DNA of 64,000 nt, taken from positions 310,001 through 374,000 of the forward strand of contig NW_002476567.1 in the NCBI RefSeq assembly GCF_000189635.1. The letters are read 5' to 3'. The position numbers and the translations under genes are program-made. Origin of the DNA: Tetrahymena thermophila SB210 (lineage: Eukaryota; Ciliophora; Oligohymenophorea; Hymenostomatida; Tetrahymenidae). Shown one piece after another: positions 31,798 to 54,716 of the stretch. The notes under the pieces are model-generated. The model did not search any database and was not told the origin of the DNA. It saw nothing but the letters and a program-made list of their open reading frames with translations. The stretch's first letter is position 1; every line of letters starts with the position of its first letter.

Positions 31798-34700
31798 TCA
31801 TTCGTAAGATATTTTTTATTTATTTTCGTTTGTAGGTGTTTTTATCTAAGTATTTGACTAAGTATCTACATTTATATTTTGCTTCAAAAACGTATTACGT
31901 TTATTAGGCACACGTGAGTATGGTTAGGTAGGGAATCTAGGTATTGGTAAAAAAGATTTAAAGTTGTGAAAGCTCAATTAGTTAACTAAAATTTTTTATT
32001 CATCCAATTCACTTTCTAACTCCTTAATTCTTTCAGAGAAGGGAATATATTCAAATTTAATATTATGAGAATTATTTTTATTAGATTTTTTATTATCCTT
32101 ATCATCTGCATTGCTTTATCTCATACCTGAAAATTAATGAATTAATTATGAATCTTCTCTTTCCTACATTTTCCCTGCAATTACATTGTCTTTTTAATTT
32201 AATATAATTTAAATGAATCCAAAATAAGTAGAAAAATATACCTAACTCCAAGACACTTACATGAGGCTATAAAAATCCATCAAGGTTGATACCGCCAAAA
32301 ACAACTAACTTTGATTCTGATTTAATTAATTAGAAATAAATTTAATAATATTAAAAATAATATATCTTTAATTTATTTATTTAATTCATTTTTAAAATAA
32401 GAGGTTTTTATTTTATAAAATAGTAAATTTTTACCATAAACACTTGATGAATGGTTGAATCTTGCATATGGTTATCTGCCATTAACTTAAATTTTGATCC
32501 AATTAAAATCATCAACGTTAAATAGGAAAAGATCACTAAAATAAACTTCGAGTTCATTGTCATTTTTACCACCATGAATTATAACAAAGTTAAATTCTTA
32601 AGAAAATTCCATAGTATGACCATATCTATTTTTAGGTCCAATGCCTTTTGTTTCTGGCTTAATCCACTGCATAGGCTTGATATCAGTCCTTAAAATTTTT
32701 AAATCTCCTAAGATCTCTCCTTTTGTATTTTTACCACCAAAGAAATAGACACCTTCTTGTTAAATCTATTTAAAAAGGATAATTAAAAAAATAAGAAAAA
32801 TAATGATTAATTCATTTAATTTTCAGATTTTAATTAATTTTGTACAAGACAATATTTTAAAAGAATATTAAAATTTATGAGTAAGCTCAATAAAATTTTT
32901 TTATGAAAAATTAAAAATATTTTGAAATTTCTTGTTATTGATTTGATGAAAATTGATTCTCTATGAAAGAAAAAAAATATTTTTTTGATATAATCTCCAA
33001 AAATAATTACAGATGCACCCCATTTAGTTACTTTCAGCTCTGCTGATTTGTAAATATTTATTTTTCCACACCTTTAGCTGTGATAAACAGGAACACATTT
33101 ATGATAAGATGATTCGAATTCTCCATTAACTACAGCCTCACTCCATGTTTATGTACCTATTGAATTATACGTCAAATTTTATTACAAATTTATAAATTTA
33201 AAAAATTGAATTTGTTTAATTATAATAATTGATCAACCAATCAAATTTATAAATTTATTTAATTCAATTGATATTTTAAGTCAAGCAAAATAAATATATA
33301 TCAAATTTATAAATTCAATTAAAAAACCTTCATTATTTAATGAATTATGAAAATATAATAGATAATTTATTATTTTACCTAAATCTAAAAACCACATGTC
33401 TCTTAATGATTGATCCTTGTTGTTCACTCCTCCATGAACTAAAAGATTTCGCCCAATTATACAAGAAGCATGATTTCTACGAGGTTAGAGAGGACCTCCA
33501 GTACAAGTAATATATTTCCATGCTCTTGTTTCCAAATTATATGAATAAACATCTAGTAAGCAATCTCTAAACTTAATTTAGTTCTAGGTCTGTCTATATT
33601 CTCCACCAAAAAATATTAAATTTTTTTTGTATAAGTGACAAGAATGTCCAAACCTAGCAGATGGTATGTTACCACTCATTTAGCTTGTTTTAACTTCCTG
33701 CCATTTAAATGTTTCTATTTAAAAATAATTTCATTTAATTAATAAAACTCGTGTATTTCATATTGGTAGATTTCAATTTTTATTTTAATGCAAATAACTG
33801 TGCAATTTTACCTAAATCAAGCTCGACTATTGTATTGTATAATTCCTTTCCTACTCCACCAAATAAATAGCCTTTTTTACCTTCTACAATCAAGCTTTAA
33901 CACTCTCTAATGTCTGGTTTCCAGTGGTTTTATTCAAAAGAATACCAATAAACAGAATAGTTTCCAGAAACAGAGTTTAAAAATCTTACTTTTTTATCAT
34001 CTTCTTCATTAAATTTATTATTTAATGGGTCAGGTTCACTATTTTATTGATTTGAACTAGTCCCATTGTTGTTGTTTGCATTTTTTACATTAATCTATTT
34101 AGTTGACCCAATAGCTCTATTTGTGCTAGGCTAGTTATTTTCTTTACTCTCTTCATTATTATTTTATGCTCCTTCTATAGTACCCTGTATCGATGTCAAT
34201 TTTTTATTTTTAAATATTGGATACTACCTTATTTTAGGCATCTTCTTTAAGACATCTTGCTGCTCTTTTATTCTTTGTTGCACATCTGAATAGCTATTCC
34301 AAGATTCAAACAAAAGGTTTCTATTAAGTTAGTGGTGAATATCTTTGTTATGAATTAGAGATAATTCTATTTTATTAAGCGGTCTTTATCCTAGTGATTG
34401 GGAACTACTCACTTATTTTCCATTACGTATGCGCCTAAATCCATTCTAAAAATTGATTCCATAATCGTTATCTTCATCGCTACTGCTTGATTCCTCGTTG
34501 TTTTAATCACTTTTTAATTGCTAGTTGATTTTTTTCTAAAGTTTTTATTACTATTCTGTAGTTTACATTTTTTCACCTGTCATCACAAACAGTTCATGAA
34601 AATCTAAATTCTAAAATGAGGGATTTTCTTAGTGAAGCTTAATAAATTATTGCTTATTTATCTCTTTGCTGTTTTTAAATGGAATGAATTTTGAGTGTTC

Positions 34701-35281
34701 AAGATCATTAAAACTTTCAGATATGTACTGCGATTTGCGTTTTTATTATTTTTTATTAGGATCTACTAACTAGCTCAATTACTGTGATTTTATATAATTT
34801 TATGTCTCATTTGAGTCAACTGGAATATGTAAAGTTATATCTGGATGTTTTGGGTCATTTTCTTAAACAGCTAATAGCTGCTGATACTTTGTCACAGAAA
34901 GTGAGCTAATTGGTATCTTCTTTTTTGTGAAGGCTTCTCCAAAAATATTTTTACAGCTAGGGCTCTTGCTCTTCATAGCCTATTAGTATGTTGAATTCAA
35001 ATTTTATAAGCTACTTATGTTTTAACTTGTATTAATACTATTATTTATAGTATAACCATTATTTTGTAAAGTATGTGAGCTAAATGATTTCTGGTTATTT
35101 GAATAAATATCTATATATTTTAGTGTATATTATTGTATTGATTATGAAATAACTAATTTAAAAGCTTTAAAATAACTTTGATTTTGATAAAGCTGTTTTG
35201 AAAATAGTTAAGTAAATAAATGTACGTACGTGGTAGAGAGATAGTCCCATTTTATTTGGAGTTAGATTATTGATTTTTCAT
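31798..35281 (-). CDS. Kelch-repeat (beta-propeller) protein
   Basis: Several exons. A short first exon from 35281 (MKNQQSNSKQNGTISLP) joins in phase to an exon containing MKSKSPSCKNIFGEAF; 34976 is the alternative start. About 350 residues of Ser/Gln/Asn-rich, acidic, probably disordered sequence come first. Kelch blades follow with the Gly-Gly pairs and spaced aromatic residues: GYLFGGVGKELYNT, SARFGHSCHLYKKNLIFFGG, RNHASCIIGRNLLVHGGVNN, GVYFFGGKNTKGEIL, RYGHTMEFSQEFNFVIIHGG and KLVVFGGINLDGFLQPHVSV. The C-terminus is a charged tail with KELESELDE. Kelch propellers usually serve as protein-binding scaffolds; there is no BTB or F-box, so the partner cannot be guessed. Confidence 0.82.
33185..33316. 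repeat. Three copies of a CAAATTTATAAATT word in a Kelch-gene intron
   Basis: The word CAAATTTATAAATT occurs near 33185, 33242 and 33302 within an intron, the last two exactly 60 bases apart. In such AT-rich DNA this may be chance or a decayed local duplication. Confidence 0.35.
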
Positions 35282-36539: not shown

Positions 36540-39500
36540 ATGGAAGTAGACTATAAAAACTTAATATCAGTGAAAAATCCATGTAAATATTTTGGCTAAT
36601 TAGGTTATAATACAAAATAATTTTTAGAATATTTAAGGAGACCAGTAAAATTACCTTAAGTCTTCATTAAGACCTTTTAAAAGTCTAATTCTCCTGACAA
36701 TCCTCTAAGCAAAAACTCAATATTGTAGACTTATTGTAACAGAAATATGAAATAATTTTTATTCAGAATTTAATAAAAAAACTTAGGAATAGAAGCTTAG
36801 AGTCAGCAAGAAAATAGCTTGAAGAACAATAAAGTAGCAGTATTTAAAACAAATTTATTATAAGAAAATCTTCTTCGAAAAGCCCTTAGAGATTAAATCC
36901 TAATGAGAAAAATAATGTTAAGTTAAATAAAGCTATTCATTAAATGAGTCCTACTTATAATAATCTAAACAGTAGCTTTGAAATTGATAAGTAATAAGAA
37001 AATAGTTACATTTACTATAATTAAGCAAACTAAGTACTATAATCTGAATAATTAAGGAGAGAAATTTATCCTATTCGCACTATACCTTATTTGCCTAAAT
37101 AAGCTATATTAAAAAGTCCTCCCAAATATAAAATAAAATAGGCTGATATACAAACTAAAGAAGATAGCTTCTTTGATAATATTTAAATGGGTATGGATAC
37201 ACTGTAAGAGTAATCTTCGTAAAAAGAAGATACAAGCTAGGAAGAAGATTCTTAAATATTTATAACAAACAATTAGAATAGTTATAGCAATGTTTCATCA
37301 GTAAAATCCTCTTTTGATTAAAATAAAAATTAAATGGGCTCAACAAAAAAAGAATAAAAAATTCATAAAGAGGTTAGCTTAAATACCTATTAATAGAGCT
37401 TAAAAAAATAAACCAGCATTTTAATATCAAATAAATCAATTTTAGATTCTGAGATATAGATTAAACAATAAAGTGATATAAGTTCTTCAGAGATTGATTC
37501 AAAGCATCTCTTGTACTTACCAAAGTAAGAAAAAGAAGTAGTATAGAAGAAAAATTAATTACAATAAATATAACCTACACAAAACGAAACTTCAAGTGAA
37601 AAAATCGAATATATTTCAAGTCACTTCTCTTAGTATTCTCCTAAAAATTAAAAATTTTAGAATAAAGTAGATACTCAAGGATTCAGTTCTTTTTATGATA
37701 AATAAGTTAATTAAAGATATTCTATAGAAAAAACTAGTGACTCAGTAATACAATCGCAAAATTAAATAGCAAATTAAGTAAAAAAAAAAACAATTTTTCA
37801 AAAAAATAATTTTATTTTTTTAAAACTAATTAGAACCAAAGGAAATAAAAAACTTTGAAATAATTTTTTCAAGGTGTTCTTAAAATGATAGGTCCTATTA
37901 TTGCATTTAGAAAGCAGTCTATTAAGAGAGAAAGGGCAAGAACAATGCCTAAGAAGAAAACAATATTTAATAAAGATAATTAGAGGCATTCTAACTTAGG
38001 AATTCTTACTTCAGGTATGTATTTAAAAATATGATCGAATTTATTGGTTTTTTTTGATATTTTTTTTTTGGTATAAAATAGAATTTATAAAATCAAACAG
38101 CTTAGTTAATTCAAATGATGAGTTAGAGTTATTTGATAATATTAAGTAAGATAAGACTCTAATTAATATAGATCTGAATAAAAAGAATCCTAATTAAAAG
38201 AGGTACAGTAACATGTATACTTATTAGTCTCTCTTAGAAATTAAAATTTAAAATATGAACTTGAATAAGCAGCTCCTATTTAATAAAATTGAAACTTTTG
38301 ATGAGGAGGCAGCCAATAAATTAGTATAAGATGGGCTGAATATAAAAAATATAGAGTTAGAAGCAGTAATGTTTTATTTGCTTTATTAAATCTTATTTTT
38401 TTTTATTAAATAGAATATAGTAGAAAATGATTTAACTCCTGAAGCTTGGATAAAAAAGATATAAAACATGAATCTACCTTACCAGGCTCGGTGCTTATTT
38501 TATAAAGATAAGAAGTATAAATTATACTTTACCTCTTTTTTTTTTGTATTTTTAATTATATTTTATAGAAGAAAACAAAATTTGATTTTAAAATGAATTT
38601 TAATCAAACATAATTTGTAAAATAGATATGTTTGGGAAAAAGTAAATATCTTAGAGTATTCAGAAGAGAAAATGAAGTACCTTGTTGAGTTCATTGAGGG
38701 AGGTTAAAAAAAATTTGTAAACAGAAATGTAATCGCATTTAGGTATTTTATTTAAAATAAAAATTTTTTTTAAATTGGAAGAAAATTTTTATATTTGATT
38801 AATGAAAAATTAAATTTTTTAAAATATTCATATTATTATTAAATAATTAATTACTCTATAAGTAATTGCTATGACATATTTTTATCTATTAAATTAATAT
38901 AATTTATTTTGATGATTATTATATTTTTATTCAGATTTGAAAAAATGGAGAATATAATTTCAAGGATAGAAACGATAATTAGTAAAAGTAAACTTGTTTA
39001 AGATGAGAAAAAATTTTAGATTTTTGTTAGTAAGGTTGATGATTCTTTAGTGGAAAATATGCAGTCAGAATAAAAATAAAGAATTTTTAATTTATGTCTT
39101 AGATAAGACTACTTGAAGAATGTAAAAAAGAAAATTTTAAGTGAAGCAATTCTCCATCAAATGTCTTAAGAAGTTGACAAATTATATAAGCATAAAATGA
39201 AAGAGATTTTGGTCATTTATTAAATGTAAAAGCCAGAATTTCAAGAATACTTTTATAAAGAAGCAGACCTTGAACCAAGGTTATTATATGCTCCAAGCTT
39301 TCCTTTTATGACAAGCATTTATAGAAGTGAAAATTTTGCTTAAATAACAAAGTACTTCCTCTTGAAAAGAAATGTTTTTTTAAAAAATGAGTGCTAAAAA
39401 TCTCTAAGCTAAGTACAAAATATCAACATTTAGTTTGGGATGAAACCAGCTTTCGATATTTAAATTGAAACAATAAAGCCACCAAAAAATATAGATCAGT

Positions 39501-42500
39501 TAATAAAAATTTAAGTAATCTTATTATTTTTTATTGTTGATGTTAAGTTAATTTAACTAATAATATTTTGTTTTTTTATAAAGAAAGAAAGCATTGATAA
39601 CATGAGAATACGTCTAATTACTAATTACAGAGAAAATATGATTCATGAAATTTTTGATAAACTCTAAAAGTTCTATAAATTTTTTGAAACTGATATTGAT
39701 AAGTATAGAAATTCACTGCTTTTTAGATTCCTAAAAAGAGTGGAATTCTAGATAGTAGAATCCTTAGGTGAAAATGTTTTCAAACACAATTGTTTTATTT
39801 GGTTGAAATTTCTTCAATCATTCACCTATCCTGAAATAAAGTTGCTTTCCTAAGAGAATAACAAAATTAAAAATAGTACTCTCACATAAGAAGAAATAGA
39901 TTTTCAAGTAAAACAAATTAAACTTAGTGAAGTATGGGTTTGCAATAATAAATAGCTACTAAACTTGAGAGTAGTTTGCACTGATTAGGGTAAAATAGCT
40001 TTCTAACCTGCCTTTGAAGAAATATTTTAGCAGCTTTGCTAACCCATTCACATGTTAAATGAAATGGTAAACAGTTTCTAAAAATTAGAAAAAACAGTGG
40101 TACCTTTGCTGGATTTTGATCTTCCTGAAACATACAAGATAGACCATGGTCCTTATGTTAATACAGTTAAAGATTTCATTTTTTCATTTATATAGGCTTA
40201 ATGGGATACATATTTAACTCCTATTGTAGAAAAATATAGCTAATTTAGCCACTTTTTCTTGGAAGAATCAACACAAGTCTTTTAAATTTTTAAGGAAGGA
40301 AGTGAAATGAATTAAAATTTTAGCATCAGTGTTTTCCTATTAGATGCTTAACTCTATTCTTAATCAAATAAATAAAAAGTTTCACAAAATCAGCCATAGT
40401 AAAACCAATCAAATAAATCTTGGATTACTTCTTAAGTTTAAAATGTATAAAATTAACAAAATGCTAACTATATAAGCAATAATTTTGGTGCTTAATCAAA
40501 TAACTTAAATGTGACAAATAATTTTGTATAAAAATCAAATTAAAAGATTTTTGAAAAAGGCTTAGCTAATATTTTGTTGGATATGACTATTGTCAGAGAA
40601 AGCGGTAATATATATTCTCTAAATTAATTGAAAGATACTAATAGAATAAGAGAAATTCTAAGAAAACTGCATGAAGATATCTAAAAAGCTAAAATGTTAG
40701 AATGTGATATTGTAAAAACACCTCTATTTTTCATAAATGTGTAACCATGTAAGAAAAATACAGTTTTTTTTGGGATGAATGCTAAAACTACCATACTGAA
40801 ATCGATTGCTTTTATCATTTAGTAAAATATTGGAACTCTTCAAGAAAGCTTTGAGCATTTTAAACTTAAAATTTCTAAGTATCCAACTAATGAAGAAGAG
40901 CTTGTATAAAGCAAAATTATCATTTCAGGTTGTGAAAGTGATATTGAAAATTTTTAAACAGAGGTAAATAAAATAAATTGTTAATTTAAAAGAAAATAAT
41001 TAGTTCATAAAAATTTATTACTTAAATTAACATATAAATAAAAATGAGTAGTTAAATTTAATTTAATTTTTTCATAAAAATTTCAAATTCTTCTAAAGTA
41101 TTTAGTTAATTATAAACTGATAGAAAGAAACAAATTATAATTTCATGATAATCTAAGTTAAATTTATTTTATTTAGATTAAAAATATAGGATAGTATATT
41201 GATTTAATAGAAGAATTTTACTTTTAAATGAACCCAACTACATGGGAGGCTTATTGGATGCTTTATACATGTCCTTAGTTAGTAAGAGAAAAATTATAAT
41301 AATCTAAATAAGTAATTGCTTAGCAAGAAAAGAAATTTATTGATTCTCTTGATAAAGAGAGATAATTGCTCCAACTAAAAATAGAAAACATTTTTCAGGA
41401 TTTCTAAACTGTAAAAAATTTTAATAATTATCAGCTAGCTAAAGATTATTGCATGGAAGCCTAATCATTAAATGAATAAATTAATGATGCTATATATTAA
41501 GGATAGTAGATAAATAAGAGAGAACAGCTTCTATAACTTTAATGTAAAAATTAATTTTGAACCACTAATTTTTATTTTAAGATTTTTAATAAAAAATAAT
41601 ATTTATTAGTAACAAAATATGTTCTGCTTGAGTAAATTAAGCAACAATCTATTTACTTTATAAAATTATGGGAGCTGGCATTTTAGCTTTAAATTGACAG
41701 ACATAAGTGGATGCTTGGTTCTTTGATGAAAATTTCATTTGAATAATTTAAGTAAAAGATACTAGAGTATGATCATAATAAAGAAGAAATAAAGGTAAAA
41801 ATACAAGAGTTGGTGGAGGACAAAAGCATTATTAAAGTAATTTAAGAAATCTAAAAAGACATAGACTAATCAAGAGTAAAATAATTATATTATTCATCTA
41901 TATCAATTTATAATATAAAAGTACTTAATAAACAAACTTTTATTTAAAAAAGGAAATATCATGGATGATAGAGTATTTGACTACAGAAGCTATGATCAAA
42001 AAACCTCAATTCTTTAAAGATTTGTTTAGAGAATGTAATTTACCAATGATAGAACCAAATGAAGATATGAGCTTAAAAGCATTAATAGATGTAGATTTAA
42101 TTCATTTTAGAGACTAAATTCGTGAATGTAGTGAAAGGGCAGATAATGTCTTCAATACAGAAAAATAACTATAACAAATACAAGACAGATTAAAAGAAAC
42201 TCTTCTCGAACTCATAGAATATAGGGAAACATTTATCATTAGCAATTTGTCTAACTTATAAAAAATTATTGTAGAACAAAACAATTCAATTCAAGAAATT
42301 AAAAATTCGGAAAGAGAAAAGTTAGCTCCAAAATATACCTAAGAGATAGATTAAAAAGTGCAATCTGTGAGTTTTAATATAGGAAAAATTTAAGAATTTT
42401 AGCAGCTTTATGTAAAACCTTTGAATTTATTATTCATTCTTTTTCTATAATAAATAATTAAATTAATATTTAGGTGTAAGCAGGAAATATAATAGATACT

Positions 42501-42701
42501 ATTGAATATGAAAAAAAGACAAACTCTTTAATGAAACCCTTTCATTAATCAGAAAGTTTTTGGAGAGGAGTAATAAGATTTGTTAGAGAAAATAACTCTC
42601 TCTTTGAAACAGATTTTAATTTTGATTATGACAATTAAATTTAAAGCTTATAAAAGTTTATTTTACAATTTAAAGATGATAAAAAGTAAACAGATAATTG
42701 A
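36540..42701 (+). CDS. Motorless dynein heavy-chain-like protein (tail and start of linker only)
   Basis: Multi-exon. The N-terminal ~450 residues are Ser/Gln/Lys-rich and probably disordered. Helical tail sequence typical of dynein heavy chains follows. At about 41230-42400 the DHC_N2/linker region is recognisable: TTWEAYWMLYTCP, FFKDLFRECNLPM, EDMSLKALIDVDLIHF, IRECSERADNVFNTEKQLQQ (family I..IS..A.KE..IEK.L..), YRETFIISNLSNLQKIIVEQ (family YK.TGTYI......LLDD) and SESFWRGVIRFV. The frame ends at TGA 42699-42701, in the middle of the linker. If a further GTAAAC intron is used it ends at about 42768, still in the linker. No AAA1 P-loop, stalk or AAA ring follows; the next gene is on the other strand. 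Internal exon joins are approximate. Confidence 0.78.
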
Positions 42702-42953
42702 TTGTTTTAAACGAGTTAGCAATAGCTAAAATATCTCTACTTAACTTCTCTTTAAACATAATGTATGATTTAAATCTTCAGATGAATTTAAGAAGAAGAA
42801 ATATTTTGAGAAAAAAAGTCTTTGTTAAAATTACTTTATAAAATTATTAAAAAAATAAAATAAATAATAAATATTATTTATTTATTTAATTAGCTATTTA
42901 AAATAATTTATATTATTGATTGTTTTAATTCAATTTTTTAGTAAATTTTATTA

Positions 42954-44100
42954 TCATTTTTCAATAATATTCACTATCTCGTGATCAATAGAAAGCTATA
43001 CAACTAAATCGTATTAATTTTTTTAGAGTTAATTGTCAATATAGATTTATGGGTGTAGTGACTTCCAAAAATAATCAACAAACTAATCAAGCTATTCATC
43101 CGTCATTCCTTTACCTGTTTTCGCTATCATTTTATGTTCAGCGTCTTTTCTCCATTACCTACTGAAGTTGTAATCTTCAGGAGTTATAATTAATAGAGAG
43201 TGAAGAGAATCCCAAAGTTTGTAGTACTCTTTCAATTTTTCTTAGCAATCCTTAGCAAATTATAAATCATTTTCATTATTAATTGGATTTAATTATTTTA
43301 ATTAGCACTCTCTTAAACCTATTTATATACAAAACAAAATATTTAAATGTAAATAATAGAGATTTATTTACATACCTATAAACCACCCTTCAAAAATAAC
43401 AATATCTGGTAGCTATGGATAGTTCTTATATCCATTTATATCACCTTACCCATTGTGAAGTGATTTATCAAATATAGGAATATTTATTGGTAGTTTTTAC
43501 TCATTTATTTATTTAAATACTTAGTATAGAGAATTTATATCGTGTGTTCCTGGAGGTCCTCTGTATTTTATTCTAGGATCTTTCTCTTAAAGTTTGAGTC
43601 TATCCTCATAACTTAAATAAAAATCATCAATAGAAAAAACCATCACATTTTTACCATCCTATTCTCCTATTCTTTAGATTAAATTACTAAAGGTAGTTTT
43701 TCCAGCGCCTTGTACCCCTAAGACTCCTGATATTACTGAACTCAATCCTGATAGATTATTTACATTAAATTATAAATATTAAAAAATTTTATATACCTCT
43801 TTTTTGTTTGATGTTTATCAGATGATTGTAGTAAGGAAGAACATAATTCCAATAGGAATCGAATATTGATTAAATGGGAATCTTATTTTCAGTAGAATAG
43901 TTTATCAAAATTTCTTAAAACTTTTCGAAATGATTTATCTATGATAAAAGCTTATCTTTTAATTAATCTTCATTTTATAAGCTCTAAAATGAGTAAGGCA
44001 ATACTTTCTTACCTACTTAGTCAATTAATGACTAAAGCTGTTAATTATTTGAAGTTAAATTCTTCAACAAATTATGGTACACGCTTACTTTATTGTTCAT
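42954..44100 (-). CDS. P-loop kinase of the Tda10 / D-glycerate 3-kinase family
   Basis: Starts MNNKVSVYHNLLKNL at 44100. The first exon is helical; the second brings the P-loop LGVQGAGKTTFSNLI, then VMVFSIDDFYLSYEDRL, YRGPPGTHDINSLYQVFKQ, PINIPIFDKSLHNGQGDING, DIVIFEGWFIGL and, at the end, FVDYFWKSLHPQIYID. These match the order SxDDFYLTH, RGxPGTHD, YDKSxxxGxGDR, EGWMxGF and LxP.. of plant glycerate kinase and yeast Tda10. Glycerate kinase makes 3-phosphoglycerate from glycerate; Tda10 has no firm substrate. The insertion of a helical N-terminus is also seen in the family. Internal introns end with TAG or CAG. Confidence 0.88.
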
Positions 44101-45063
44101 AATTTGTAATTTTTTTAAAATAATATTTATTAGCAATAAATAAGTAAACAAGTAGCTTTTAGAATTCTACCAAAAATAAAAGTTATTAAATATTTGCTTA
44201 ATAAATAGAAAAATATTTGATAAAATTAGCAAATTGCATCAATATTTATCAAAATTATTTAAAATATGACGATTATTATAAAAATTATTTGCAATAGGAT
44301 TTTGGATATTTTTAAAATATTTATTTTTATTCATAAATTAATTTAAAAATAAAAATTCTAATTTAAAAAAAGAGTAAATTTAATTTAGATATTTATTTAT
44401 TTACTGCTATACAAATAGAAATATTTTTTTAAGAAAATAAATATTTTCAAAAAATTTTTTAATAAATAAAAATTTTAAAAGTAATTATCTGAAATTGAGA
44501 AAGACTTAAAAATGAAAAATTAATGGTATTAAAAATTCTTTCAATAAATTAATATTATTTATATTATATTTGTCATATTTAAATTGAAGGAACTCTTAGA
44601 AATAATTAGTATAAATTTTTTTGGTGTGTTTACATTAAAACAAATAGATAACTTTTAGAGTATTAAAAATATATGAAAAGATTTTTGAAAATGTTTTAAT
44701 AAAGAGCTGAAAAAAAAATGGGATGTGTTTATCAATAATAGGTTGCCTGATCATCCATCAATAATAAATAACATGTTGTTAAATTCTAAATTTTTTTGAT
44801 TTATATTTTGTGTAAATTGAAATATATTTTTGGAATTAAATAATTGAGATTGTATATTTATTTATTATTAATAGATAGATAATAGATTTTAGTCATAAAA
44901 AATTGCTATTTTAATTTGTAAGTAGTAAGAATTTGTAAGACAATAAATTAAACAAATTAACAAATAAATCTATTCAATTAATCAATTTTGATAGTAGGAT
45001 AACTAAAAATATATCATAGCACTAGCAAATTTTAACAATTAAAATTTTTTGAAACCAATAAAA
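44101..45063. other. Intergenic region between divergent genes
   Basis: About 960 bases of AT-rich sequence holding the promoters of the Tda10-like (minus) and DOP1 (plus) genes. Nothing else recognised. Confidence 0.55.

Positions 45064-54716
<9,653 letters not shown>

Follow-up and report, generated by a model that had tools for sequence, protein, structure and literature searches.

A motorless dynein heavy-chain homologue of axonemal type in Tetrahymena thermophila

We examined a gene on the forward strand of a 64,000-nucleotide stretch of Tetrahymena thermophila DNA (the window, C13:310001-374000), where positions 36540-42701 are spliced to 12 exons encoding a predicted protein of 1712 amino acids (aa). 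Sequence comparison confirmed that this gene is a motorless homologue of the axonemal-type dynein heavy chains: by homology its predicted product belongs to the dynein heavy chain family, and it fails to show the motor features of that family. We consider it rather likely that the gene is an old inner-arm paralogue which has lost its motor and would persist as a protein consisting of the tail alone, serving for docking or as a scaffold and producing no force. The preliminary description of the window had offered two fates for such a protein, that of a scaffold or regulator and that of a decayed axonemal dynein. The motorless homologue itself stands, and the retained scaffold or regulator is favoured over decay, since the tail is conserved and the linker relaxed against a control of 23 paralogues and the reading frame is intact. 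The product is thus probably a working non-motor component rather than a broken dynein.

A heavy-chain tail and part of a linker

Searching Pfam with aa 548-1712 gave a single family at E values up to 1, DHC_N2, which matched aa 1402-1684 (85.5 bits against a cut-off of 31.9, E 4.6e-24) over columns 1-278 of its 403. This hidden Markov model search bears out the preliminary description, which had recognised DHC_N2 from the motifs SLKALIDVDL and YRETFIISNL and had placed the stop inside the linker. A whole-genome DHC_N2 scan independently listed the gene (C13:351950-352312, E 2.3e-13), and a profile built from the tail and linker of all 25 ordinary heavy chains in the genome matched aa 802-1694 (E 1.4e-51), with the match ending at column 772 of 1347, so that the homology stops inside the linker in both models. 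A PDB search with the same piece, at E values up to 1, yielded 12 distinct sequences, all of them named dynein heavy chains or AAA+/DHC_N2 domain proteins; the best was 9e5c_6a (E 2e-17).

As had also been proposed, no AAA motor or stalk was found after the gene. Six-frame translations of positions 42690-46000 (pieces longer than 15 aa) were searched with the 25-chain profile, which goes no further than the point where the motor begins, and with tail models of the paralogues C322 and C176, and no motor or linker remnant was detected (best E 0.039). Genome scans with AAA_6, AAA_8, AAA_9 and Dynein_C listed nothing on contig C13 that would correspond to an AAA1 P-loop or AAA ring, and the scan with MT (PF12777) likewise listed no stalk or microtubule-binding region there. 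The next gene lies on the opposite strand, in agreement with the preliminary description: it contains the open reading frame (ORF) 42954-43817, occupies about 42954-44100 on the minus strand and is about 250 bp away, and the gene studied here sits well within the contig.

The dynein-like loci were counted in one assembly of the genome (101 Mb, 445 contigs), using six-frame scans that score best candidates only, so that weaker loci or a highly divergent motor may have gone unseen. DHC_N2 detected 30 loci, comprising 25 ordinary chains, the gene studied here, C334, C290, C273 and C297 (the last below the cut-off), while AAA_6 detected 30 loci made up of the same 25 and C273, C114, C297, C214 and C206; the AAA_6 search also matched in three of 14 control genomes, none above the cut-off. 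Dynein_C found the 25 together with C114, C206, C214 and C273 (C273 below the cut-off), AAA_8 the 25 and one C114 match below the cut-off, AAA_9 the 25 ordinary chains only, and the MT stalk model 24 of the 25 (C317 unlisted). The number of ordinary loci agrees with the 25 heavy chains given for T. thermophila in Table 6 of PMC3341644. For each of the 25 ordinary loci the sequence retrieved contained tail columns, and so did the gene predictions of all seven divergent loci, where the match reaches column 1118 or further. Hence, no motor locus without a tail was found among the 32 other dynein-like loci detected, and the gene studied here is the only one of the dynein-like loci found that stops in the middle of the linker.

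The seven divergent loci (C273, C114, C297, C214, C206, C290 and C334), none of which is in the AAA_9 or MT lists, are possibly stalkless or degenerate motors of a DNHD1-like kind. C334 and C290 were considered as other motorless candidates; DHC_N2 is present in both, but neither gave AAA_6, AAA_8, AAA_9, MT or Dynein_C matches. Both are predicted to be long genes, with profile matches running to columns 1118 and 1209, and a scan of ten of their long exons gave a Dynein_AAA_lid match in one exon of C334 (E 3e-9). Because the profile matches extend past the linker and C334 has this lid match, the two loci were rejected as tail-only genes. Locus C247 aligns over 1405 aa, at 3225 bits, to 6zyw_B, an outer-arm beta heavy chain from T. 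thermophila, and the portion of the alignment that was inspected is free of mismatches, in keeping with this species as the source of the genome.

Kinship with inner-arm chains and uneven retention of tail and linker

Unfiltered sequence searches recovered the kinship with the paralogues. The nearest kin in a single-sequence search were C176 (E 4.6e-49) and then C322 (E 3.5e-40), both full-length inner-arm-like chains. A phylogeny from 26 rows and 722 columns groups these two and places the protein as sister to the pair, with a support of 100/100. Two stretches of its tail region can be aligned to each of these chains: aa 527-1055 and 1186-1691 to C176, and aa 524-1001 and 1156-1687 to C322. 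The best PDB match of the C322 tail, as predicted, is DNAH7 (4e-83), with DNAH3 and DNAH1 next (near 1e-71), and these three belong to the single-headed inner arms (PMC10266980, section 12). In the C322 prediction, aa 426-514 and the stretch from aa 523 on (with the forms SPEEW and TPQEW) both align to one C176 stretch, as if a tail segment had been duplicated in C322.

One of the eight introns in the aligned part of the gene (38515-38625) has a position common to both C322 and C176, which supports the gene model and a duplication at the DNA level; a retrocopy origin is not favoured, given this common intron. C322 and C176 themselves have four same-phase intron positions in common (within one column), including this one. 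Orthologues were also sought in prokaryote and virus contig collections, where 47 + 1 pattern stretches were obtained and none was confirmed, a result that is uninformative because those collections hold prokaryotes and viruses.

We then compared the constraint on the two parts of the protein at alignment columns where C322 and C176 carry the same residue. The protein keeps 146 of 366 such residues in aa 527-1580 and 18 of 78 in aa 1581-1700 (Fisher p 0.006). A change-point scan over all boundaries with about 40 columns or more per side put the break at residue 1558, a result reached by 14 of 2000 permutations. The best-retained part of the tail is aa 886-991 (0.65 in a 40-column window).

As a control, 24 paralogues were scored in one 26-row alignment at the positions conserved in C176 and C322. 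The protein has the highest tail retention of the 24 (56/139, 0.40; the next is C317 with 52/138) and the lowest linker retention (17/76, 0.22; the next is C221 with 21/76). Its linker-to-tail ratio is 0.56, whereas the ratio is 1.22-2.24 in all 23 of the other, motor-bearing paralogues, where the linker is better kept than the tail. High tail retention is partly expected of a sister to the reference pair. The same position would not predict the low value for the linker, to which misalignment may nevertheless contribute. Neither a neutral relic nor uniform decay nor a misassembly that truncates a motor gene would be expected to produce this pattern.

Several observations weigh against a tail-only protein maintained by selection. 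The boundary at 1581 was picked after inspection of the window identities, and a split at 1484/1485 gives 121/312 versus 43/132, with p 0.24. Seven of the eight introns in the aligned part are shared with neither C322 nor C176. No other end branch in the tree is as long as the one leading to the protein (2.37), whose identity is 23% at best; the fast evolution is therefore real, and misalignment could account for some of the low linker retention.

Retention, decay and other explanations

The long branch and low identity would also suit a decaying inner-arm dynein pseudogene whose frame has stayed open by chance, and so would the weak conservation of the linker and the absence of the motor. However, all 12 exons, 1712 codons in total, are read without meeting a TGA before the end, and at so large a divergence a neutral frame should have broken. 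Moreover, constraint has not been lost everywhere, as the tail is the best kept of the 24 paralogues and only the linker is relaxed, and we regard the pseudogene as unlikely. That the gene is cut off by an assembly or rearrangement artefact, with the true gene running on into a motor elsewhere, is the least probable of the explanations considered: the evidence does come from a single assembly in 445 contigs, but the gene lies far inside its contig, its convergent neighbour lies about 250 bp away, neither a downstream remnant nor an orphan motor was found in the searches above, and the linker half that remains is already without motor-type conservation.

A split dynein, in which the tail polypeptide pairs with a motor from another gene, has a precedent in Schizophyllum commune, where an 1180-aa Dhc1 tail gene stands apart from the Dhc2 motor gene (as described in PMC4540427), and a very divergent partner could have escaped scans restricted to best candidates. 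It is nevertheless disfavoured because every motor locus examined, 25 of 25 ordinary and seven of seven divergent, has tail columns; AAA_9 detected ordinary chains only, 25 in number, and the linker half that would be needed for cooperation with a motor is the relaxed part. We consider this arrangement very improbable, by a shade less so than misassembly. A functional tail protein acting outside the axoneme, at the basal body, at the cortex or in the cytoplasmic assembly of inner arms, has a chance close to that of the pseudogene, if slightly smaller. Constraint on the tail is by itself silent on the place of action, and the polar N-terminal extension and the insert rich in asparagine and glutamine (N/Q) could fit such a role, but the nearest kin are inner-arm-like chains with matching tails.

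The favoured reading therefore remains that of a motorless inner-arm paralogue retained for its tail. The gene would have arisen long ago, when a single-headed inner-arm heavy chain of the C176/C322 clade (DNAH7-like) was duplicated at the DNA level, and would then have lost the second half of the linker and the entire AAA motor. Single-headed inner arms carry actin together with centrin or p28 (PMC10266980, section 12; PMC12399478), and Tetrahymena has the p28 proteins p28A, B and C, as named in PMC12399478. The protein might have kept these usual tail partners, and its conserved tail, above all aa 886-991, may retain the partner contacts and allow docking on the doublet or the radial-spoke base. 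Since the ring and stalk are missing, no force would be produced, and we favour a passive arm or docking scaffold, which could serve as a spacer, as a scaffold, or as a competitor filling or guarding an inner-arm site. The partner, the site and even the ciliary localisation are in this sense inferred. The binding of intermediate chains, suggested in the preliminary description, appears less apt, because the nearest kin look like chains of single-headed inner arms with their actin and centrin or p28.

More tentatively, and with less than even chances in our view, the protein may be a dummy inner dynein arm, a motorless chain that fills a specific axonemal docking site without force and so tunes the waveform. 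If true, a repeat position or a region of the cilium would be structurally filled yet forceless. In a ciliate that is easy to handle genetically, a conserved motorless tail would set docking apart from the generation of force, and it would warn that inner-arm density need not equal a motor.

Known systems, gene structure and neighbouring genes

Compared with C176 and C322, the protein is homologous from the tail through the first half of DHC_N2, but those chains have a full linker and AAA motor, whereas it ends at DHC_N2 column 278 with a relaxed linker remnant. A natural tail-only dynein polypeptide is already on record in a system whose motor is encoded separately. Dhc1 of the basidiomycete S. 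commune is likewise a natural gene for a tail without a motor (PMC4540427, in its account of the split cytoplasmic dynein); there, as with Dyn1/Dyn2 of U. maydis (split within AAA4), the motor comes from a second gene, while no tail-less motor locus was found here. The split dynein of Basidiomycota is also cytoplasmic, whereas the protein studied here is axonemal in kind. Dominant-negative motor fragments in Dictyostelium are mentioned in PMC7140473, which also cites a paper on a truncated heavy chain; such artificial truncations are laboratory constructs of cytoplasmic dynein, whereas this gene is natural.

Searches of an open-access library, supplements excepted, brought up no tail-only heavy chain of axonemal kind, and the dynein table of PMC9776847 gives numbered Dyh chains only. 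Censuses that start from full chains or from the motor can pass over a motorless tail: that of Wickstead and Gull relied on PF03028, which models a C-terminal part of the motor, and on hidden Markov models built from the chains thus found (PMC2239267, in its search description), and the Ichthyophthirius paper used the full DYH4 as query for the Ich heavy chains (PMC3341644, likewise).

DNHD1-type proteins are divergent and dynein-like and are not counted as ordinary motors. The protein studied here is similarly a dynein homologue outside the ordinary motors. It differs from the seven divergent loci, possible candidates for this type, in that their matches continue past the linker.

The gene model was built with ciliate genetic code 6, GT-AG introns and frame continuity. 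The preliminary description was right about the start (ATG at 36540), the end (in-frame TGA at 42699-42701) and both linker motifs. The terminal TGA is the only one in the frame, while the other two frames of this coding sequence contain 36 and 76. Exon 1 (36540-36724, aa 1-61) holds the start codon; intron 1 (36725-36786) is the weakest splice choice, so that about the first 61 residues are uncertain. Exon 2 (36787-37777, aa 62-392) encodes an N-terminal extension rich in Q, N, S and K, which continues through exon 3 (37834-38014, aa 393-452) into exon 4 (38082-38365, aa 453-547), where the aligned tail begins at about aa 524. Residues 1-520 are 68% polar, and a 330-aa stretch of them matched no Pfam family at E 1. 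Exon 5 (38414-38514, aa 548-580) carries the tail motif TPEAW in a form common to C176 and C322, and is followed by the common intron, whose column and phase (2) match an intron predicted in both. The tail continues through exons 6 (38626-38742, aa 581-619), 7 (38935-39514, aa 620-813), 8 (39584-40963, aa 814-1273) and 9 (41177-41543, aa 1274-1395), exon 8 holding the best-retained region and the N/Q-rich insert (about aa 1061-1160). The DHC_N2 match begins in exon 10 (41610-41875, aa 1396-1484), runs through exon 11 (41953-42411, aa 1485-1637), the N-terminal linker part with SLKALIDVDL and YRETFIISNL, and ends in exon 12 (42474-42701, aa 1638-1712 and the TGA). The short intergenic stretch at 42702-42953, which precedes the convergent gene, revealed no linker remnant.

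That minus-strand neighbour belongs to the PRK/uridine-kinase P-loop family (Pfam E 8e-7). Further on, a Dopey-family gene on the plus strand starts at about 45130 and probably extends to about 52400 (Dopey_N, E 9e-30 on a 116-aa piece); the long ORF 48645-52412, with a poly-glutamine run, is probably part of it. On the other side, about 31800-35280 on the minus strand encodes a Kelch-repeat protein (Pfam Kelch_KLHDC2_KLHL20_DRC7, E 5e-60).

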